A DNA stretch of 64,000 nt from Isosphaeraceae bacterium EP7. Its GTDB lineage: Bacteria > Planctomycetota > Planctomycetia > Isosphaerales > Isosphaeraceae. The notes beneath the pieces were generated by a model. That model was not told the DNA's origin. It made no database searches and saw nothing but the letters and a program-made list of their open reading frames with translations. The stretch's first letter is position 1; each line of letters begins with the position of its first letter. Positions 1,789 through 50,343 of the stretch are shown one piece after another. The position numbers were made by a program, and so were the translations under genes. The stretch spans positions 2,987,174 through 3,051,173 of the forward strand of contig CP151667.1 in assembly GCA_038400315.1 (NCBI GenBank). Reading direction: 5' to 3'.

Positions 1789-1813
1789 GCGCCGGGCGGG
1801 CCTGCATGATCGG

Positions 1814-3673
1814 TTACTTGCCGAGCCAGGCGCGAAGGTGGGCCTTCTGGGCGTCGGTCGCGGCGGGGTCGGGTTCGAGCTTGAACAGGGGCTTGGGCTC
1901 CTGGCCGAAGGTCGCATCCAGGCGCATCAGTTTGCCGCGGCGTGCGATGAGGACCGAAACCTTCTCGGCGGGCCGGTACTGCTCCATCCGCCTGGACCAC
2001 TGCTCGGGCACGACCCGCTCGTCGCCGACGGCCACGATCTCGTCGGCCACGTTGAAGCCGGCTTCGAAGCCGGGGGTGCCTCGCTTGACGGCGGCGACCG
2101 TCAGGCGGCCCCCGTCGGGCTTGGTGTCCAGGCCCAGCCAGGCCTTCTCGGGCTTCTTCGGCTTGTCCTTGTCCTTGGGGTCCTCCCCGGTCGAGAACCG
2201 GAGGCCGTACCACTTCAAGGTTTCTACATAGTCAAGTTCGTCGGTGGTCTCGAGCGCCCTGTGGAAGAAGGAGGAGAGGTCGACGCCGGCGACCTCGGCC
2301 GCGACGGCGCGGAACTGGCCCGGGGTGAAGCCGGTGGCGCCCGAGTAACGCGGATAGGCCAGACGCATCACGTCATCCAGGCTCTTGGATCCATGAGTGA
2401 CGCGGCGGATCTCGGCGTCGAGGAGCAGGCCGACGACGGCCCCCTTGACGTAGTAGCTGATGGCGGTGTTGGGGGTGTTCTCGTCGCGGCGGTAGAACTT
2501 GATCCAGGCGTCGGCCGAGGCCGATTCCAGGGGCTGGACCGCGCGGCCGGGGGTCTCCTGGAGCCGCTGGATGTCCCCCTTGGGCTTGTCGGCGTCGGCA
2601 CCCGTGGGGGCCACGTCGCCGGCCAGGTATTCGTCGTCGGTGCAGAGCCCGGCGCGGCGGAGCAGGAGGTCTCCGTAGTAGCTGGTCAGCCCCTCGGCGA
2701 TCCAGAGGCTCCGGCTGACGGCCTCCTTCTCGTAGTCGAACGGGCCGAGCTCGACGGGCCGCAAGCGCTTGACATTCCAGGTGTGGAAATATTCGTGACT
2801 GACCAGGCGTAGCCAGCCCAGGTAGTCGGCCCGCCGCCTGCCGGCCCAGCGGCTGGCCATCAGGACGGTCGAATTCCGGTGCTCGAGGCCGCCGCCGGTC
2901 TCGGTCAACAGGTTGAAGACGATGTACTTGTCATAGGGGAGCGAGCCCCAGAAATCGCGCTGGGTGCGGACGATGGCCTCGACGTCCTTGGCCGCCTTGG
3001 GTCCGTCCCAGAGGCCGCCCCCCCCTTCGTTGACGATGTAGTGCGGCTTGCCGTCGACCTCGAACTGGTCGACCTCCGGGCTGCCGGCGTAGATCGGCGA
3101 GTCGACCAGGGCATCATAATTGTCCGCGAGGTAGCGGTGGGGGACGTCTCCGGCGACGATGGGGAGGCCGCAGTAGGTCTTGGCCCAGGTGGCGGGGAGG
3201 GTGAGCCTCACCTCGTGCGGGCGGGGGCCGCCGTCGACGGGGGTCAGGAAGGTGGCCGCGCCGTTGAGCAGGGCGAACGAGCCGTCGACCCAGTTGGTCT
3301 GCACGCTCATCTCGCGGCCGTAGACCCGATAGCCAACGACCACGCGGGCCGCGCCTGCGGAATCGATGCGCCAGCGGTTCTTGGCCGTCTTCTCGACGGT
3401 CAAGGCCTTCCCCTCGGGGGTCCGGGCGGTCACGCCTTCGACGTGGCGGGCGTATTCGCGGACGAGGTACGAGCCGGGCGTCCAAACAGGGATCATCAGG
3501 TCAACATGGTCGCGGCCATCGGATGGCACGTCGGCCTCAACCTCGACGTAATGCGTCTGGGGGGCCGGGAATCGGAGCGAATACCGCACCGGCTCGGCGC
3601 CACGCAGGGCGGCCGGCAGGGCGAGCAGGGCCAGCAAGACGAGTCGGAATCGCATGGGCATCTCGCGGTTCAT
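1814..3673 (-). CDS. Exported M61-family (glycyl aminopeptidase-like) metallopeptidase with PDZ domain
   Basis: About 619 residues. An N-terminal hydrophobic stretch (RLVLLALLALPAALRGA) looks like a signal peptide, so the enzyme is probably secreted to the periplasm. The zinc motif HEYFHTWN at about residue 293 followed by VKRLRPVELGPFDY is diagnostic of peptidase family M61. A C-terminal PDZ-like segment near residues 525-600 (AWLGLDTKP...GSPGFEAGFNVADEIVAVG type) fits the M61 architecture of beta-sandwich, catalytic domain and PDZ. Several start codons lie close together (3706, 3673, 3661, 3655); 3673 is a compromise. It ends 26 bases from mtfA, in convergent orientation. Substrate unknown. 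Confidence 0.88.
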   Translation of the reverse strand: MNREMPMRFRLVLLALLALPAALRGAEPVRYSLRFPAPQTHYVEVEADVPSDGRDHVDLMIPVWTPGSYLVREYARHVEGVTARTPEGKALTVEKTAKNRWRIDSAGAARVVVGYRVYGREMSVQTNWVDGSFALLNGAATFLTPVDGGPRPHEVRLTLPATWAKTYCGLPIVAGDVPHRYLADNYDALVDSPIYAGSPEVDQFEVDGKPHYIVNEGGGGLWDGPKAAKDVEAIVRTQRDFWGSLPYDKYIVFNLLTETGGGLEHRNSTVLMASRWAGRRRADYLGWLRLVSHEYFHTWNVKRLRPVELGPFDYEKEAVSRSLWIAEGLTSYYGDLLLRRAGLCTDDEYLAGDVAPTGADADKPKGDIQRLQETPGRAVQPLESASADAWIKFYRRDENTPNTAISYYVKGAVVGLLLDAEIRRVTHGSKSLDDVMRLAYPRYSGATGFTPGQFRAVAAEVAGVDLSSFFHRALETTDELDYVETLKWYGLRFSTGEDPKDKDKPKKPEKAWLGLDTKPDGGRLTVAAVKRGTPGFEAGFNVADEIVAVGDERVVPEQWSRRMEQYRPAEKVSVLIARRGKLMRLDATFGQEPKPLFKLEPDPAATDAQKAHLRAWLGK

Positions 3674-3790
3674 GGCATGAAATCTCGCGAGATTGTACCC
3701 GCGCAATCAAGCCGCCGGAGGGGGCCCGCGATCCGGGCTCCTGGAGCCGAATTATCAAAGATCGAGGCGACCGGATCATCGTGCCTGGGC

Positions 3791-4960
3791 TCAAACCATC
3801 GCGGGCGTCGGCTCGGCGCACCGGCCCCGGCGGGTCCTGCGCAGGTTTTTCAGCAGGTTCGCGTTGCGATTGGCGGCCTGGCGGGCCTGGACGCGGGCCT
3901 TGGGAGTGGTCGGCGAGGGCTGTTCGTCGACCTTGGTGGGTTCGTTCCGCAGCAAGTCCACCAGCCTTGGGTGGGTCGGAACCTCCTTGGTGGTCGTCGG
4001 GGCCTCGGCGATCAGGTCTTCAGCGGACTCGGAATGGGTTCGTACGTCGTCGTCGAACAGGCTCCATTCGAGGGGATCGCTCTCACGGCGGATCCTGTCG
4101 TTGATCGATTCCCTCAAAGCGTTTGCGTCATTCCGCCACGAGTCCCGCGCCTGGGCCTTGCGCGTCTGCATCAGGTCGAGCGCCCATTTCATGCGTCGGA
4201 AGCTGGCTGCCTCGTACCGCCGGAGGAGCTTCATGGCCCGGTCGTCGCCCGCGGTCAGGCCGTTGGCCGCCGCCTCTCGCTCGTTCTCCTCGATCTCGTC
4301 GAGGCCAGCGGCCTTGAGCCCGAGCAGGCGTTCGAGCTGTTCGTCGACCAGCGCCTGACGGTGTTCGAGCGAGCTGATCCCGTCGGCCGGTTCCAGGGGC
4401 GAGAGCAGCTCGCGCACGGCCGAGTCGAGCCCGAGGAGGTCCAGGGCCATCCCCGCCTGCTCGTCGGTCCACTCCCCGGCCGTGTCAAGCGCATGCCCCA
4501 GGGCACGCCATCGTTCGATCATCCAGTCGCAACCCGGGGCGCAGATGCTCAGGCGACCGGCCACCACTTCGGGCCGGCCCGGCAGGGCGAGCGCGACCTC
4601 GGCGATCTCGGCCTTTCGCTCGTCGGCCCAGCAGATGGTGGCGCGGCGGGCCCTGGCCTTGCGGGCCTCGCTTTCCTCGCCCTGGAAATGCGCCATCCGC
4701 ACGCTCTCCACGGCGATGATCTTCAGCAGGCCCCGCTCGAAGTCGTCGCTCGGGTTCAGGGCGCTGTACCACTCCTGGCCGCGCTCATGGACCATCTCCG
4801 TCTGACTTTTGGGCAAGACCACGCCCTCGCCGGCCATCCCATGAACCAGGCTGTTGCGCCGCGACTTCTCCTTCCCCTCGGTCGTCTTCGGCCCCGTGCT
4901 GCGCAACGCATTACGGCGATTGGCGTCGATCCGCTTCTGGCTGACTTCGAGCTTGCCCAT
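3791..4960 (-). CDS. Conserved planctomycete protein with N-terminal TGP-T-EGK motif, unknown function
   Basis: About 389 residues. The N-terminus (SQKRIDANRRNALRSTGPKT, then EGKEKSRRNSLVHG) is a basic motif I recognise from a large uncharacterised family common in planctomycetes and acidobacteria, usually with many paralogues per genome. The rest is mostly charged helix, with a low-complexity basic C-terminus. No catalytic motif was found. The start at 4960 (MGKLEVSQKR) matches the family; an upstream in-frame start at 5038 would run into a dispersed repeat. The gene sits directly downstream of repeat copy 1. The basic motif may bind nucleic acid, but this is inference. Confidence 0.75.
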   Translation of the reverse strand: MGKLEVSQKRIDANRRNALRSTGPKTTEGKEKSRRNSLVHGMAGEGVVLPKSQTEMVHERGQEWYSALNPSDDFERGLLKIIAVESVRMAHFQGEESEARKARARRATICWADERKAEIAEVALALPGRPEVVAGRLSICAPGCDWMIERWRALGHALDTAGEWTDEQAGMALDLLGLDSAVRELLSPLEPADGISSLEHRQALVDEQLERLLGLKAAGLDEIEENEREAAANGLTAGDDRAMKLLRRYEAASFRRMKWALDLMQTRKAQARDSWRNDANALRESINDRIRRESDPLEWSLFDDDVRTHSESAEDLIAEAPTTTKEVPTHPRLVDLLRNEPTKVDEQPSPTTPKARVQARQAANRNANLLKNLRRTRRGRCAEPTPAMV

Positions 4961-4980
4961 GGTGCTGCGTCGCTTCCCGG

Positions 4981-5127
4981 GTGCGTGGTCGATGATGGTT
5001 TCGCCGGCTTCGGCGAGCGGGGCATGGCCGCGCAACATCGCGCGAACGGGTCCCCTATTGGAGATAATCCTGAAATGAGGGCGTTTCCTCCCTCCTTTTT
5101 CGGAATTCTGCGGAAATTCTCCGAGGA
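4981..5127. repeat. Dispersed ~150 bp repeat, copy 1
   Basis: This stretch aligns by eye with 6430-6577 in the same orientation. Shared blocks include cttcggcgagcggggcat versus cctcggcgagcggggcat, acgggtcccct, ttggagat, cctgaaat and ggaattc, in the same order and nearly the same spacing. Read on the minus strand it lies immediately upstream of the TGP-motif gene. No open frame, transposase or clear terminal inverted repeat is seen within it. Confidence 0.65.
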
Positions 5128-5226
5128 ATCCAGGAACCGTCGAGACACGGGCGCCAAGCGATTGCCTAGGGGCCGAAGTCCCCCGGGGTTCTGTCCATGA
5201 TTGGGCAGGGCCACATGGCCCCTCGG

Positions 5227-5604
5227 CTACCCCGAAGGTGAGCGGCCCTTCGAGTCCTTTGGCCGGATGACTGGGCGATCCGTTGAGCCCGTACCGGGGG
5301 GCCGCCCCATCGCATCCAGGAGCCGTTGAAGCGTGTCGAGATACTTGGCCAGGGCCGCTCGCCCCTTCTTGGTCAGTGAGTAGGTCGTCCTCGGGCGACG
5401 CCCGACGAAGGCTTTCTCGGCCAGGACGTATTCGGCTTCTTCGAGCTTCTGGAGTTGCAACCCCAGGCTGCCATCCGCCGCCTCCAGCCTCTTCTTCAAC
5501 GCCGTGAAATCATGGGGCCCTTCGAGTTGGAGTGCGGTCAGCACCCCCAACCGCAGCGGGCCGTGGACGGTGGTATCGAGGCCGTTGAAGTCAATCGGCT
5601 GCAT
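5227..5604 (-). CDS. Winged-helix transcriptional regulator (HTH_34/MarR-PadR type)
   Basis: 125 residues. The sequence HGPLRLGVLTALQLEG, then FTALKKRLEAADGSLGLQLQ and a wing with RRPRTTYSLTKKGRAAL is the classic winged-helix fold of the small regulators annotated as HTH_34 or PadR/MarR-like. It likely binds DNA as a dimer. It follows the membrane-protein gene on the same strand and overlaps it by 14 bases, so the two are co-transcribed and probably translationally coupled. The paired inverted repeats upstream of the operon (6245-6278) are good candidates for its own operator. The last 20 residues are a basic, low-complexity tail. The effector is not evident. Confidence 0.85.
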   Translation of the reverse strand: MQPIDFNGLDTTVHGPLRLGVLTALQLEGPHDFTALKKRLEAADGSLGLQLQKLEEAEYVLAEKAFVGRRPRTTYSLTKKGRAALAKYLDTLQRLLDAMGRPPGTGSTDRPVIRPKDSKGRSPSG

Positions 5605-6217
5605 GGTTCGCGGTCGCCTCCCGCAGCTGAAACCACTGGATCGCGACGGCCGTCAGGTAGCCCAACGCCATCAGGCCATGTGCAACGGGAAGGCAGTATC
5701 GCGGGTCGAGGATCGGCAGGAGCATTCCCGCGAGCAAGGTGGAAATGGCAAGGCCGAGGCAGTAATGATGCTCCCTGCTCTTCAGGGCCGCGCGGACCAG
5801 GATCAATGAGAAGGCGAAGAGGAGGCCGATGCTCGCGGCATACAAGCCGGCCGTTCGCGCCGGTCCCACCGCGGGGCCGGCGAACACCGCCATCGCATAG
5901 CCCCACCCGGCCACCCAGACGACGGCATAAATGCTGATTGAAAGCATCACCTGCGCGATGATTTCAGGGCCGAGGTCGGGGGCGCGGCGAGAGCGCAGGA
6001 ACAACCCCACGGGACCGAGGACCATGATCGTGGCGAACGGGACGACCTGGGCCCGGTCGTCGTCCACGAGCAGGCTGACGGCCGCCGCGACGACCGAGGC
6101 AACCGTGAGCAGGATGCCGAAGGCCAGCATCCCCCCGTCGAAGGAGAGGCGCAGCCCCATCGCCCTCTGCATCACGGCAAGATCACCCCTGATGCGACCG
6201 AGTTCGTCGTCCGACAT
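5591..6217 (-). CDS. Multi-pass membrane protein co-transcribed with winged-helix regulator
   Basis: 208 residues with about five to six hydrophobic helices: after a charged N-terminus (MSDDELGRIRGDLAVMQRA) come helices near residues 27-47, 55-70, 85-105, 115-140 and 155-195. No catalytic or transport signature was recognised. The start at 6217 is supported by a strong ribosome site (ggaggg) a few bases upstream; a longer frame to 6490 would enter repeat copy 2. In many bacteria such pairs of a small winged-helix regulator and a membrane protein form autoregulated two-gene operons. The function remains unknown; membrane sensing partner is a guess. Confidence 0.75.
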   Translation of the reverse strand: MSDDELGRIRGDLAVMQRAMGLRLSFDGGMLAFGILLTVASVVAAAVSLLVDDDRAQVVPFATIMVLGPVGLFLRSRRAPDLGPEIIAQVMLSISIYAVVWVAGWGYAMAVFAGPAVGPARTAGLYAASIGLLFAFSLILVRAALKSREHHYCLGLAISTLLAGMLLPILDPRYCLPVAHGLMALGYLTAVAIQWFQLREATANHAAD

Positions 6218-44560: not shown

Positions 44561-44932
44561 ATGGCCGATCAAACCCGCCCCTCGTTCGACCGGGCGGATC
44601 TCATGGAACGGCTGGATAGCGACATCGAGCTCATCTCCGAGCTCGTCCAGATCTTCCTGGAAGATGCTCCTCAACTCGTCGAGGAGCTGGGCGCCGCCCT
44701 CGCTCGCGGCGACACCGCCCAGGTCCACCGGTCGGCCCACAGCCTCAAAGGGTCCGCGAGTAACTTCTCCGCCGGACCCGTCGTCGAGTCGGCCTTACGG
44801 CTGGAGCTGATGGGTAAGTCGGGCAATCTCGCCGACGCGCCGAGCGAGTTCAGGGCCCTGGAGGCCAACCTCCTGGACCTTGAGCGAGACCTCAAGGTGC
44901 TGGTGACCGAGGGCAATCGTGAGGCGAGCTGA
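44561..44932 (+). CDS. Histidine phosphotransfer (Hpt) domain protein
   Basis: 123 residues. A single Hpt domain with the phospho-accepting histidine in VHRSAHSLKGSASNFSA (histidine 60) and the typical helical bundle (DSDIELISELVQIFLEDAPQ). Such proteins shuttle phosphate between hybrid kinases and response regulators. No hybrid kinase is adjacent, so its partners are elsewhere or include the kinase at 13-15 kb, which lacks a receiver; this is open. It is divergent from the sialidase-like gene and convergent with the FtsK-type ATPase gene. Confidence 0.9.
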   Translation: MADQTRPSFDRADLMERLDSDIELISELVQIFLEDAPQLVEELGAALARGDTAQVHRSAHSLKGSASNFSAGPVVESALRLELMGKSGNLADAPSEFRALEANLLDLERDLKVLVTEGNREAS

Positions 44933-44965: not shown

Positions 44966-47900
44966 TCATTCGGCGCGTTCGGCCAGCGCCCTTCGATAGT
45001 CGGCCAGGAACTCGGCGGTGGGGAGCCCGAAGGGACGGAACTTCTCCAGACGGCCCTGCTCCTCTTCGTGCAGGTAGGCCCGGTTCGTCCCCAGGCGGCT
45101 GGCGGCCGGCCCGTCGACGAGATTGCTCGAATCCGCGGGGCTCATCTGGAAGAGCACCCTCGAGGAGAACTCGCGCATCGCGGGGCGGTCGAACGACCGG
45201 TTAGCGTTGTTCAGCGAGTCGGCCCAGGCCAGGACGTGAATCCCCAGCGGCGGCCCCTCGCGCAGGAGCGTGGCCAGCCGCTCGGCGGGGCTGACCACCT
45301 TCTCGGCGCCGTAGCTGCCAAACCCGCCGTAGCTGTCCTCGGCCCGCCGCAAGTCGCGGAACCGCTGGAGGTCGTGGATCAGGACGAAGACCGCCTGGGC
45401 CTCGGCCGATGCGTCTCCCTGACGCCGCTCCAACTCTTCGCCCAACGCATTGAAGGCCGTGCCGACGTCGCGCGTGCCGACCATGTCAACCCGATGGGGC
45501 AGCCCCTCGGTCATCGACGCCAGCACGCCCGCGGTCGACGCATCGACGGGCGTGCCGTCGATCAGGATGAACCTCACCTGGCTGGGCGGAAGCTGCGCGG
45601 CGAGGCTCAGCAAGCACGACGCCATCACGGCCGTGGCCATCTCGTCCTGCTGGCCGATCAGGAGGAGGTTGGCACCCCCCTGGCGGCGGAACGTCGCGGC
45701 CGTCGGGTCCTTGATCGCGATCGCGTCGCCCAGCCAGGCATGCGGCACCTTGGGAGGTTCGGGCCAGCGCCCGGGGGTCGGCTCCAGCCAGCGGGCCAGC
45801 AGCGGATTCTGCTCGATCCGGGCCGGGATGTTCCCCTCGAAGACCAGCGGCGGCCGGCGCGGGACGGCCGAGGGCCGCTCGCGGTCGAGCCGCTTGACCT
45901 CGTCCAGGTAGACGTCCCGGCGCTCGTCGGAGAGCCAGACCACCTGGAAGATGTGGTTCCCCTCGATCATCCCGTTGGCATCGTTGTAGATCGCCTCGCC
46001 GGGGCGGGACAGCAGCCGGGCGGCCGAGTTGTCCTCGCTCAGGATCAGATGGGCGTCCGCCTCGCTGCACTGCAAGGCGATGCGCACGGCCATCTGGCCC
46101 AGGGTGCTGCGGGCCAGCGAATAGGCACCGCTCAGGGTCTGCGAGCCCAGGTGGACGTGAATGCCGAAGGCACGGCCCTGGCGCACCAGTCGGTCGAGCA
46201 GCAAGGCCGCCTCCTGGCCGAGCTTATCGTCCTCGACGAAGAACTCCTGGAACTCGTCGACGATCAGGAGAAGACGGGGCATCGGCCGGTCGGGCACCGC
46301 CTTGCGGTAGGCGGCCAGATCCTGCGCGCCGGCGTCGCGGAATTGGTCCCCGCGCTGCTTCAGCTCCTCGTCCAGCCGCTGGAGGACGCTCAGGCCGAAC
46401 TCGCGCTCGCTCTCGATGGCGACCACCCGGGCATGCGGCAGGCCGTGCACCGCGTAGGTCTTGAACTCGACCCCCTTCTTGAAGTCGATCAGGAACATCT
46501 CGACCTGGTCGGGCGAATAACGCAGCGCCAGGTTCGTGATCAACGCATGAAGCAGTGTGCTCTTGCCCGAACCCGTACGCCCGGCGATCAGGACGTGCTG
46601 CGCCGTGCCCCGGCCCAGGGTCAGGTGCTGGAGCCTGGTGGCCCCTGCGCGGCCCAACGGCACGTCGATCCCCTTGGCGCTGTCGGACATCCAGTAATCG
46701 GCCGGGTCGGGCGCGATCACGTGGAAGGGGACCTCGACGCGCCCCGCCTCCTTGGCGCGGGCGCCGGCCGACTGAACCATCGCCGTGAACACCTCGGCCG
46801 GCGGCGGGGCGTCGAGCGTCAGCGGATACAGGCCGCCGAAGGGGCTCCCCCTCCAGGTGAATTTCCCCTCGCGCCAGGCCAGCACGGTGGCGTACGCCTC
46901 CAGGTCCTTCAGCGCGAAGCCCTGCGGCAGCGGCAGCCGCTCGTCCACCGAGATCAGGGTCGTCACCCCGCAGCGTGCCCCCCCCGCGGCGACGCTCAGC
47001 AGCCGCCGCGCCGCCTGGTCGCTGAACCCCGCGGGGAAGTTGGCCACCACCAGCACGCGGAACGGCTCGGCCACCTCGCCGGCGTGTTCGTTGTAGTCGC
47101 GGATCGACGTGTACTCGTTGCGCAAGTACTTCTGGATCACGTTCTCCATGTGCTCGGTCAGGTCGACCAGCCGCTGCTCGATGTGGCGCTCCTCGGTCCA
47201 GATCCTGCTGGTGACCATCGACTCGTCGAAGTCGACTAGGTGCATGAACGCGGCGAAGTTGCGGCCCAGGCCCACCGGGTCGATGATGGTGAACTTCACC
47301 TTGCTCGCCGGCAGCGAGGTTAGCCGCCTGAGCATCGCCGCCTGGATCGCATCGACCGCCCGGTTGCGCCCCTCGCCGTAGGCCCTAAGCAGCAGGGAGC
47401 CTTCCTCGGGGAACGGGATGAGGGCCGGGGTCGAGAACGCCGAGGGGCCCATGACACGCAGGGCCTCGTCGTGCGAGATCGCGTCGGGAACCTCCGCCGG
47501 GTCCACCGCGAGCGACCCGAACCGCATCGTCGCGGGCACCAGCGTGTTGGGCCTCCACTCGTCCGCGGGGCGGCGGGCCCAGTCGAAGAAGAGCCGGCCC
47601 GCCACGGAGTCGATCGCGGCGATCTCGGCGTCGACCCGGCCCAGGCCGTCGCGCCATCGGTCGGCCATCTCGGCCCACTCCGCCTCGTGGCGAGCTCGGT
47701 TCGCCACGATCCGCCGCTCGTGCTCGCGGTCCAGGCGCCGGCCATCCTTCTCGTAGCCCAGATCAGCCTCGTCGCGGAGCCTGGCGGCGTCGATCTCGAT
47801 CCTTCCCAGGCCATCCAGGCGTTGAGACTCGGCGTCGGCGATCAGCGGCTTGAGCATCGCATCGGCCGCCTTCAGCTCCGAATCTCGCCTGAACGTGACC

Positions 47901-48943
47901 TGCGCCAGCTTCGCGTCGTGAGCCTCGTCGCCCGCCCGCTGCTCGGCCTCGTGGCGGCTCTTCGCCGCGGCCAGGTCCCGCTTCGCCTCGTCTTCATGGC
48001 GCAGCTTGACGGCCGGGAACAGCCCGGCCAGTAGCCCGATCGTCGACGAGAGCTTCGCATGCGGACCGGAGACCTTCCGCCTGGCCAGCCCGACCAGCCA
48101 GGGTCGCAGGCCCACCCCCAGGGCCAACCCGACCGCCGCGCCCGCCGCCGCGCCGATCGTTTCGGCCGCGAACCACCCGGCCCCCGCAAGGGCGGCGATC
48201 AGCGCCGCGACCGCCCACGGATACGTCTTCCAGGCCAGCAGCTTCGGCAGGAGGAGCCCTTCCAACCGCTCCAGGTCGGCGGTCGCCTCGGCCACCAGGC
48301 CCCTCACACGGGCGAACAACTCCGAGGCCGTCTCCCCCTCGGGTGCCGCGGCGGGGGCGTCAACGGCCGTGCCCGGGAGACCCGAGAAACGCCCGGTGCG
48401 AGAGAGCGTCTCCAGGGCATCCTGCTCGATCGGCCCATAGGCTTCCTTCTCGTCGGCCTGGTCCTTTCCCGCCTGGTCGAGCCGCTTCCGGATCCCATCG
48501 CGGCTCGCCTCGGCCACGGCGCCGGCCTGCCATCGTGCATCGTCGCGGGTCTTGACCGCCTCGTCCCGGTCGCGGCTGAAGATCGACCTGGCACGTCGCG
48601 TCGCCTGCTCATACGCCGCCTGCGCTGCCGCCTGCGCTGCCTCGGACTTGCGGATGAGCGAGGCCCGCCTGTCCCCGGTCTCGCGTTCGAGCACCTCGAT
48701 TTGCTTCTCGTAACGCCGCCGGAGCCCGTCGCGCACCCCCTCATATTCCTGCGTCGCCGACAGCTTCTCGTCCTCGAACCTCCGCTCGACCCGAACCTCG
48801 GCCGCCGCCCGTTCCTTCGAGAGTCTCCCAAGCAGCTCCAAGGCCTCGCGCTGGCGGTCGACCAGGTCGCGGCCGTCCCGGGGCGTCGCGGATGCGTCCG
48901 ATCCGGCGGCCGACGGCGTGCGTCCCAAGGTGCTGCTCGCCAT
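44966..48943 (-). CDS. Membrane FtsK/SpoIIIE-type ATPase, type VII secretion (EssC/EccC)-like
   Basis: 1325 residues. Order of parts: coiled coil (about 24-180), linker, two to three membrane helices (about 240-286), a second long coiled coil (about 315-445), then three FtsK/SpoIIIE-like modules. The first (about 515-690) has no P-loop. The second (about 755-1010) is intact with Walker A AGRTGSGKST (787-796) and Walker B LLLIVDEFQE (891-900). The third (about 1065-1300) has IGQQDEMATAVMAS where a P-loop would be. Three consecutive modules are the hallmark of EssC/EccC, the motor of type VII secretion, rather than of FtsK, which has one. The gene ends the operon that begins with a WXG100-like gene at 50228. 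The two coiled coils flanking the membrane segment are unlike EssC, which has FHA or ubiquitin-like parts there. Confidence 0.85.
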   Translation of the reverse strand: MASSTLGRTPSAAGSDASATPRDGRDLVDRQREALELLGRLSKERAAAEVRVERRFEDEKLSATQEYEGVRDGLRRRYEKQIEVLERETGDRRASLIRKSEAAQAAAQAAYEQATRRARSIFSRDRDEAVKTRDDARWQAGAVAEASRDGIRKRLDQAGKDQADEKEAYGPIEQDALETLSRTGRFSGLPGTAVDAPAAAPEGETASELFARVRGLVAEATADLERLEGLLLPKLLAWKTYPWAVAALIAALAGAGWFAAETIGAAAGAAVGLALGVGLRPWLVGLARRKVSGPHAKLSSTIGLLAGLFPAVKLRHEDEAKRDLAAAKSRHEAEQRAGDEAHDAKLAQVTFRRDSELKAADAMLKPLIADAESQRLDGLGRIEIDAARLRDEADLGYEKDGRRLDREHERRIVANRARHEAEWAEMADRWRDGLGRVDAEIAAIDSVAGRLFFDWARRPADEWRPNTLVPATMRFGSLAVDPAEVPDAISHDEALRVMGPSAFSTPALIPFPEEGSLLLRAYGEGRNRAVDAIQAAMLRRLTSLPASKVKFTIIDPVGLGRNFAAFMHLVDFDESMVTSRIWTEERHIEQRLVDLTEHMENVIQKYLRNEYTSIRDYNEHAGEVAEPFRVLVVANFPAGFSDQAARRLLSVAAGGARCGVTTLISVDERLPLPQGFALKDLEAYATVLAWREGKFTWRGSPFGGLYPLTLDAPPPAEVFTAMVQSAGARAKEAGRVEVPFHVIAPDPADYWMSDSAKGIDVPLGRAGATRLQHLTLGRGTAQHVLIAGRTGSGKSTLLHALITNLALRYSPDQVEMFLIDFKKGVEFKTYAVHGLPHARVVAIESEREFGLSVLQRLDEELKQRGDQFRDAGAQDLAAYRKAVPDRPMPRLLLIVDEFQEFFVEDDKLGQEAALLLDRLVRQGRAFGIHVHLGSQTLSGAYSLARSTLGQMAVRIALQCSEADAHLILSEDNSAARLLSRPGEAIYNDANGMIEGNHIFQVVWLSDERRDVYLDEVKRLDRERPSAVPRRPPLVFEGNIPARIEQNPLLARWLEPTPGRWPEPPKVPHAWLGDAIAIKDPTAATFRRQGGANLLLIGQQDEMATAVMASCLLSLAAQLPPSQVRFILIDGTPVDASTAGVLASMTEGLPHRVDMVGTRDVGTAFNALGEELERRQGDASAEAQAVFVLIHDLQRFRDLRRAEDSYGGFGSYGAEKVVSPAERLATLLREGPPLGIHVLAWADSLNNANRSFDRPAMREFSSRVLFQMSPADSSNLVDGPAASRLGTNRAYLHEEEQGRLEKFRPFGLPTAEFLADYRRALAERAE

Positions 48944-49142
48944 GGCTCGGTCGTCCTTTCAGGTGGGGCAGGGGCGGGGACCCGGGGCCCGTCACGTGAC
49001 CGGGCTCTCGCATGGTGCGTTCGATACTCAGGAATGACGGCGGCGACACGGCCGAGTGGCCCCTGTCCTGTTCCCGTCATTGTAAACAACGCGACGTGGA
49101 CGAAGCGGCGAATCGAGCACGCGGAACCCGAATCGCCGCAGC

Positions 49143-49370
49143 TCAGTCCAACGAGGCCGCGTCGCCGCACTCGCGCTTCATCCTGGCCAGGATCTCGCCC
49201 AGCTGGTCCATCGCCCGAATGGTCGTCTCAGTCTGAATCTCGAGCGGCGCGATCTGCCGCTGCTCGAAGTCACGCCTGACCTGGTCGGACCAGCCTTCCT
49301 TGGCCGTCTCCCATTGAGCATTCAGGGTCTTCATCGCATACCGCAACCTGCTCGCGCCGGCGCTGCTCAT
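49143..49370 (-). CDS. Small WXG100-like helical protein, candidate secreted partner
   Basis: 75 residues, almost all helical. The middle reads EGWSDQVRRDFEQRQIAP, with a tryptophan, an aspartate two residues on and a phenylalanine eight residues on (W-x-D-5x-F). This is the spacing of the WxG...F hairpin of WXG100 proteins, with Asp in place of Gly, and the same pattern occurs in the gene at 49956-50228. The protein is a little short for WXG100 (about 100 residues). Its start overlaps the stop of the coiled-coil gene by 4 bases (49367-49370), so it is translationally coupled. It precedes the ATPase gene by 199 bases. Secretion is inferred from context. Confidence 0.75.
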   Translation of the reverse strand: MSSAGASRLRYAMKTLNAQWETAKEGWSDQVRRDFEQRQIAPLEIQTETTIRAMDQLGEILARMKRECGDAASLD

Positions 49371-49906
49371 GGCGTGGTCCCCCCCGGTTCCGGCGCCATC
49401 GGGGGCGCCGTGGGCATCATCGGCGGAGCGATCGCCGCGTAGGCATCGATGGCCGTCATCATCCGGTCGAGCATCGCCACGCCGTTCTGCACGCGGCCGT
49501 TGACCGTGTCGTCCAGGCCCCGGCCGTGGGACTGGTATTCGGCCACGGCCTGCTGGAAAGTCGCCACCCAGCGCTTGACCAGCTCCAGCTTCTCCTCGGC
49601 CTCGCGCAGCCGACGGGTCGCCATCCGCACGATCTCCTGCTGCTCGGTGTCGTTGACCGAGTCCATCGACATCTTCATCAGCTTTTTGCGGTGCAGCTCG
49701 GTCCGCGCCATCGAGAGCTCGCCGGCGCGACGCTTGATCTGCTCCTGCCAGTACATCCTCTGGCGATTGACCAGCCAGTCCGTCGCCCGGGTGATCTCCA
49801 TCTGCGTGGCGCCGATCGCCTGGCGAGCCTCCTCGGCGAAGAGCGCCAGCGCCTCGCGCGCCAGCCTGATCGACTCGATCGACTGCACATTCGCCGACTG
49901 GCTCAT
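49367..49906 (-). CDS. Coiled-coil protein of the WXG100/FtsK operon with Pro-rich tail
   Basis: 179 residues from an ATG at 49906 (a longer frame reaches 49936). It is predicted to be nearly all coiled coil from residues about 5 to 150 (for example IKRRAGELSMARTELHRKK; RLREAEEKLELVKRWVATFQ), followed by a Pro/Met-rich flexible tail (MMPTAPPMAPEPGG). No signal peptide or membrane helix. No family was recognised. In type VII loci long helical proteins of this kind often act as substrates or adaptor proteins. It lies 49 bases downstream of the WXG100-like gene and overlaps the 75-residue gene by 4 bases. Confidence 0.75.
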   Translation of the reverse strand: MSQSANVQSIESIRLAREALALFAEEARQAIGATQMEITRATDWLVNRQRMYWQEQIKRRAGELSMARTELHRKKLMKMSMDSVNDTEQQEIVRMATRRLREAEEKLELVKRWVATFQQAVAEYQSHGRGLDDTVNGRVQNGVAMLDRMMTAIDAYAAIAPPMMPTAPPMAPEPGGTTP

Positions 49907-49955
49907 GGCGGTCCGTCCCCCCCCGTCCGTTGGCACCGGCCCACGCCCGTTCGCA

Positions 49956-50228
49956 TCAACGCTGCTGCAAGTACTCGTCGATGCGGTCGGCCTTGCGCAT
50001 CAGGAACGGGATATGCTGGTTGGAAACCTCGAGGAATCGCGCGATGGCCTGGATGGTCGCGTCGAACTCCTCGGCGAACTTCTCATGCTCCTTGTCGCGC
50101 CAGGTCTGGCTCAGGCCCTGGAACTGGCCGCGGAGGGTCCCCATCTGGGTCCCCACCTCGTCGCCGAATCGCTTCAGGCTCTGGGCGAACCGGCGCATCT
50201 CGGCCGGATCGACGACTGCTTGAGACAT
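49956..50228 (-). CDS. WXG100-like protein (ESAT-6/EsxA superfamily)
   Basis: 90 residues, helix-turn-helix. The turn reads LSQTWRDKEHEKFAEEFDAT: tryptophan 43, aspartate at +2, phenylalanine at +8. Classical WXG100 proteins have W-x-G and a phenylalanine or tyrosine at about +8, so the match is good apart from Asp for Gly. The first helix (DPAEMRRFAQSLKRFGDEV) and the second (IQAIARFLEVSNQHIPFLMR) have the heptad character of the family, and length is right. It is the first gene of a four-gene operon ending in the EssC-like ATPase, and so a likely exported substrate. The preceding glgX gene ends in a hairpin, so the operon should have its own promoter at 50229-50321. Confidence 0.82.
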   Translation of the reverse strand: MSQAVVDPAEMRRFAQSLKRFGDEVGTQMGTLRGQFQGLSQTWRDKEHEKFAEEFDATIQAIARFLEVSNQHIPFLMRKADRIDEYLQQR

Positions 50229-50321: not shown

Positions 50322-50343
50322 CCGCCGGGCGCGCGCCCGGCGG
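50322..50343 (-). terminator. Perfect 10-bp hairpin after glgX
   Basis: CCGCCGGGCG (50322-50331) and CGCCCGGCGG (50334-50343) are exact complements with a two-base loop, starting 2 bases from the glgX stop on the minus strand. It has no T-run, but position and strength make it a good terminator candidate separating glgX from the WXG100 operon. Confidence 0.55.

Follow-up and report, generated by a model that had tools for sequence, protein, structure and literature searches.

The question raised by this locus is whether four adjacent planctomycete genes make up a type VII secretion machine stripped to an ATPase and a few small helical proteins. To our knowledge, type VII secretion has been studied almost only in Actinomycetota and Bacillota. 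The machines of these two phyla contain several membrane parts. We analyzed a window of 64,000 nucleotides from Isosphaeraceae bacterium EP7 (contig CP151667.1), whose 7.2 Mb genome is 99.9% complete. The original prediction, made from the letters of the window, described a minimal type VII-like operon on the minus strand. The four open reading frames were verified at 90, 179, 75, and 1325 residues and are called W1, CC, W2, and ATPase here (Table 1). For CC, the ATG at 49906 was taken as the start, not the GTG at 49936. The predicted 4-base overlap was located between CC and W2 (49367–49370). The hairpin predicted to separate the unit from glgX, here a glgX-like ORF upstream, is a perfect 11-bp inverted repeat with zero spacer, and its RNA fold shows a modest gain over shuffles (z -1.95).

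Table 1. Features of the unit, in positions of the window (residue numbers for the ATPase layout).
Feature	Position	Strand	Description
W1 (gene 1)	49956..50228	minus	90-aa WXG100 protein; W-x-D instead of W-x-G; C-terminus DEYLQQR
CC (gene 2)	49367..49906	minus	179-aa protein, predicted helical hairpin (helices 10-80 and 87-159); proposed substrate carrier hairpin
W2 (gene 3)	49143..49370	minus	75-aa short WXG100-like protein; W-x-D; C-terminal Cys common among relatives
ATPase (gene 4)	44966..48943	minus	1325-aa EccC/EssC-type membrane ATPase
ATPase layout			coiled coils around putative membrane hairpin (~240-285), then degenerate NBD1, active NBD2 (774-1000), degenerate NBD3
Perfect 22-base palindrome	50322..50343		between glgX-like ORF and W1

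The two small proteins had been read as WXG100-like. W1 scores 31.9 bits against Pfam WXG100 (PF06013; cut-off 27.3), so this reading holds for W1, which is the sole match above the cut-off in the whole genome. The NCBIfam WXG100 model TIGR03930 matches W1 as well, with a score under the model's own cut-off. W2 gave no match in a Pfam scan. In a profile–profile comparison it pairs with W1 at a probability of 86.7%, with the W-x-D turn aligned; judged by sequence, W2 is a short, divergent relative of W1. Both proteins carry W-x-D with a phenylalanine at +8, as first noted (W43/D45/F51 in W1; W27/D29/F35 in W2). W-x-D is present in 71 of 72 W1 copies, the remaining copy being a fragment, and in 45/45 W2 relatives. 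The locus as first described is beyond chance: the motif is invariant in these relatives, and the gene order is kept (see below). The strict W-x-G motif of WXG100 proteins and the T7SS-substrate motif YxxxD/E each occur in 0/72 W1 copies. Across the same copies, W1 is nearly always 89–91 aa long and most copies end in [DE]YLxQR. When 940 genomes were surveyed for proteins with W-x-G, WXG100 proteins turned up nearly exclusively in Actinobacteria and Firmicutes, plus a few in Chloroflexi (PMC3935865); by requiring W-x-G, this survey would presumably have missed the W-x-D variant. Separately, W2 of the window and its relatives frequently have a single conserved cysteine near the C-terminus, of the type R-x-C.

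The ATPase matches Pfam PF01580 (9.6e-38) and belongs to the FtsK/HerA superfamily. The unit could thus encode a DNA or nucleoprotein translocase of this group, with the WXG100-like proteins as accessory factors that are not exported. Parts of the ATPase model do align structurally with FtsK (Z 24.5 over 253 residues), and PADLOC matches to SspH and mad8 lie over the ATPase module. However, sequence and whole-protein fold both favor EccC/EssC over FtsK by a wide margin. Profile scores are 117.7 bits for EccCa (6.4e-34), 96.5 for EssC, and 35.9 for FtsK. The best sequence match in the PDB is EccC (4nh0, 2e-35; FtsK, 5e-10), and the predicted fold is closest to the same EccC structure (3.5e-30), followed by EssC (8e-19) and FtsK (4e-11). 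By these scores the ATPase does not side with the DNA translocases, which would have counted against an EssC type. A WXG100 partner that is strictly co-inherited and degenerate flanking modules also argue against a translocase, which we consider improbable.

Three FtsK/SpoIIIE-type modules had been predicted in this protein. For the fold this stands, as a model of residues 450–1325 (pLDDT 84) contains three RecA-like modules. For catalysis it does not: in 49/49 relatives the middle module, NBD2, carries both Walker A (G-x4-GK[ST]) and Walker B, and the flanking modules lack them. Two membrane-like segments are present in the N-terminal half of most relatives above 1200 aa (56/71). The ATPase of the window has one segment above threshold (242–260) and, by eye, a second, weaker stretch after it. 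A Pfam scan of this protein found no FHA domain.

The reported absence of EccB and EsaA-like parts was searched across the whole genome and holds there. EccB gave a chance-level match (E 0.55), and neither EsaA nor YukC/EssB gave any. In each of the YukC/EssB and EsaA searches one control genome exceeded the cut-off, which B. subtilis would be expected to do. A gene for a ubiquitin-fold, YukD/EccD-N-like protein lies far from the unit (G000:C1:696475-696705; locus L157, 8311-8733, plus strand). It was considered as a fifth part and rejected as a core component, with a presence in 5/24 unit-bearing genomes vs 13/175 others (Fisher p 0.048). This gene adjoins one for a putative membrane protein, and is found in 18 of 199 genomes of the phylum, mostly without the ATPase unit.

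Conservation of the neighborhood was examined in 199 Planctomycetota genomes, sampled evenly. The ATPase is present in 24 of them and W1 in exactly the same 24, spanning nine families. CC is present in 23, all with the ATPase, and W2 in the same 23; the genome lacking both (G107) has a completeness of 86% and a short ATPase of atypical kind. Profiles of W1, CC, and W2 gave no match outside the ATPase-bearing genomes of this sample. With profiles built from relatives, the order W1-CC-W2-ATPase was found in 61 of the 77 loci with enough upstream sequence. No other family is linked to the unit in more than 9 of ~104 loci. ATPases that at first appeared to lack partners had them elsewhere in the same genome, wherever the genome was searchable. 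In G105 the four genes lie at ~0.23, 0.71, 1.94, and 2.66 Mb of one contig; in G024 the unit genes are at three places, and in G087 they are on four contigs. The genes still co-occur in these dispersed genomes, and their shared presence is therefore independent of linkage. This is strong evidence that the four genes are one functional unit.

The few components, the two ATPase modules out of three without catalytic motifs, and the failure to find other T7SS membrane parts are what a degenerate type VII remnant that had lost secretion would show. Yet the NBD2 catalytic motifs are intact in every relative compared, W1 keeps its length and fixed C-terminus, and the four genes are retained even where they are scattered over the chromosome. 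Such co-occurrence is unexpected of a relic, and we regard this explanation as highly improbable.

The 179-residue coiled-coil protein of the original prediction exists as a gene and proves to belong to the core of the unit. Neither Pfam nor NCBIfam gave a significant family match for CC. An AlphaFold2 prediction using 52 relatives gave one long helical hairpin with a mean pLDDT of 92. A known PDB fold was sought and not obtained, as Foldseek returned nothing at E <= 0.001. VIA Z scores of ~10–11 to assorted coiled coils are no more than long helices would give. CC was also considered as a WXG100 homolog and rejected at a profile–profile probability of just 14.7%; an iterated search did pull in CC, which profile drift may explain.

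CC proteins mostly end soon after the hairpin, with a tail of <=52 aa in 69 of 73. Three planctomycete contigs (L068, L089, L132) encode CC with an Imm33-like C-terminal domain. In an Anaerolineae MAG (L137), a CC domain (E 1e-30) is fused to a C-terminal domain common to a Rhodococcus plasmid protein (2.7e-20); the end of this domain resembles ParB-type motifs by eye and has no Pfam match. The same MAG locus (1791-5850) encodes an ATPase without a membrane segment. Between its W2 and ATPase genes are two adjacent proteins that combine coiled coil, WD40-like repeats, and a membrane-like segment, which looks as though the ATPase had shed its membrane part as separate genes.

A distinct planctomycete branch had been put forward for this unit. 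A purely planctomycete branch is contradicted by related units on proteobacterial, actinobacterial, and deinococcal plasmids, and the class was already noted in 2012 (PMC3482391). On these plasmids, W1 matches sit beside a related ATPase in Caballeronia (E 1e-25), Helicobacter (4e-18), Rhodococcus (8e-12), and Deinococcus (9e-10). In the plasmid units, unlike the planctomycete unit, the place of CC is taken by a toxin-type or long helical protein, the ATPases are mostly shorter, and some units include additional genes of the vWA, PP2C, kinase, or Ter type. In the Helicobacter plasmid the order is W1, a 340-aa protein with WHH/colicin-DNase nuclease domains at its C-terminal end, an SMI1/KNR4 protein, a 77-aa protein, and the ATPase. 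A nuclease toxin and an immunity gene thus occupy the CC slot. The CC profile scores ~14–18 bits against the N-termini of the plasmid toxin-type proteins in 3 of 4 plasmids, Helicobacter being the exception (best decoy, 7.6). At the sequence level, this only suggests that CC is homologous to these N-termini. Since relatives have toxin-type proteins or forms with C-terminal domains in the CC slot, we infer that CC holds the slot of the helical targeting region of a substrate and would be the carrier part of a type VII substrate.

These plasmid forms could also mean that the unit serves conflict or defense, in the manner of polymorphic toxin systems. It would then be a delivery chassis for a contact-dependent toxin that planctomycetes have lost or encode elsewhere. 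The toxin and immunity genes between W1 and ATPase in Helicobacter fit such a role, as do the Imm33-like and ParB-like domains on CC. However, the unit of the window has no toxin or immunity genes and no such family is linked to it in relatives, most CC tails are short (<=52 aa, as given above), and the length and C-terminus of W1 are strongly conserved. Each positive genome has exactly one CC, which leaves no further toxins with a CC domain. We therefore rate a toxin-delivery role as unlikely.

Overall, the unit looks like a pared-down relative of Gram-positive type VII secretion systems, and its four core components probably make up a type VII-like unit for protein export. In such a unit, the ATPase would be anchored in the cytoplasmic membrane through its putative membrane hairpin and would probably work as a hexamer. 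ATP hydrolysis by the middle module alone may drive transport across the cytoplasmic membrane, with the degenerate flanking modules acting as scaffold and receptor. CC would associate with W1, and probably also with W2, as its WXG100-type partners, and together they would make up a composite helical cargo. The fixed W1 C-terminus is a candidate docking signal on the ATPase; this is proposed because of the analogy to a signal-sequence peptide bound to EccC modules 2–3 (title of PDB 4n1a). Most Planctomycetota have a CC free of any toxin domain; there, what is exported would be the hairpin complex as such, which would also have to pass the outer membrane. In relatives, the hairpin in the CC slot may be fused to, or replaced by, a toxin. 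Several points count against this reading: there is one W1 and one CC per positive genome, with no substrate family or repertoire visible, W1 lacks YxxxD/E, the unit has no recognized membrane partner proteins, and for CC there is neither a significant PDB fold match nor more than weak homology to the plasmid toxin N-termini. A more specific reading is possible, and we put it forward tentatively. The unit may be a distinct type VII subtype of outer-membraned bacteria, in which the ATPase is the only membrane protein and exports a non-toxic W1/CC/W2 cargo built from three helical hairpins, and the toxin-bearing plasmid forms would mark CC as a modular carrier.

How the unit relates to described systems depends on the breadth of the definition. 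ESX systems have been defined as an FtsK/SpoIIIE ATPase plus a WXG100 substrate (PMC4010439). In this broad sense an EccC/EssC-type ATPase and an adjacent WXG100 gene are both here at the level of the genes. T7SSa (ESX) and T7SSb (Ess/Yuk) likewise combine these two in one cluster. Unlike them, the planctomycete unit has no EccB, YukC/EssB, or EsaA that we could find in the genome and no FHA match, its small proteins have WXD for WXG and W1 has no YxxxD/E, and its ATPase has three modules vs four NTPase domains (PMC11217815). In the Gram-positive T7SSc–T7SSj (Garrett et al. 2024, PMC11217815), four NTPase domains are again present, and most of these systems include a YukD-like TsxB. They resemble the planctomycete unit in their reduced or altered sets around an ATPase (TsxC) and a WXG100 protein (TsxA); the latter differs in its three modules, the lack of a linked YukD, and the presence of CC and W2 instead.

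The closest description is of solo-WXG systems with a three-module YueA-like ATPase, for which Planctomycetes are named (Zhang et al. 2012, PMC3482391, Table 1 footnote 6). These share with our unit a WXG protein and an ATPase with three HerA/FtsK domains, the middle one alone active. This kind of system is thus already known, noted in that one footnote and barely described. The footnote itself names no CC, W2, W-x-D motif, or co-inheritance. It calls the class mobile. The unit is patchy in Planctomycetota (24/199) and its relatives in other phyla are on plasmids, whereas the planctomycete copies examined are on large genomic contigs, with the genes scattered in some genomes. Our literature search, with subscription papers and preprints outside its scope, found no other account of the planctomycete unit. 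This analysis adds CC and W2 (genes 2 and 3), the presence pattern common to the four genes, W-x-D combined with a fixed C-terminus, and the suggested role of CC as carrier. If the export reading is true, a four-gene unit with one recognizable membrane protein, kept as a set in nine families of Planctomycetota even where its genes are apart, would point to the smallest working core of the machine. It would also show how a type VII machine operates in outer-membraned cells. The link between the bare CC hairpin and the toxin-bearing forms of relatives also opens the origin of type VII toxin substrates to testing.

Several genes border the unit or its relatives. Directly downstream of the ATPase in the window, and outside the unit, a convergent ORF (44561-44932, plus strand) reads like an Hpt (histidine phosphotransfer) protein. 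The Rhodococcus plasmid (L167) has the order ATPase, a hairpin plus ParB-like protein, a 73-aa protein, and W1, and its unit adjoins two TerD-family genes and a DUF475 gene. On pSBC2-5 (L165), the genes on either side of the Caballeronia unit are of the vWA, PP2C, Ser/Thr kinase, DUF1887 CARF, and AAA-domain kinds and resemble a TerY-type phosphorylation set.
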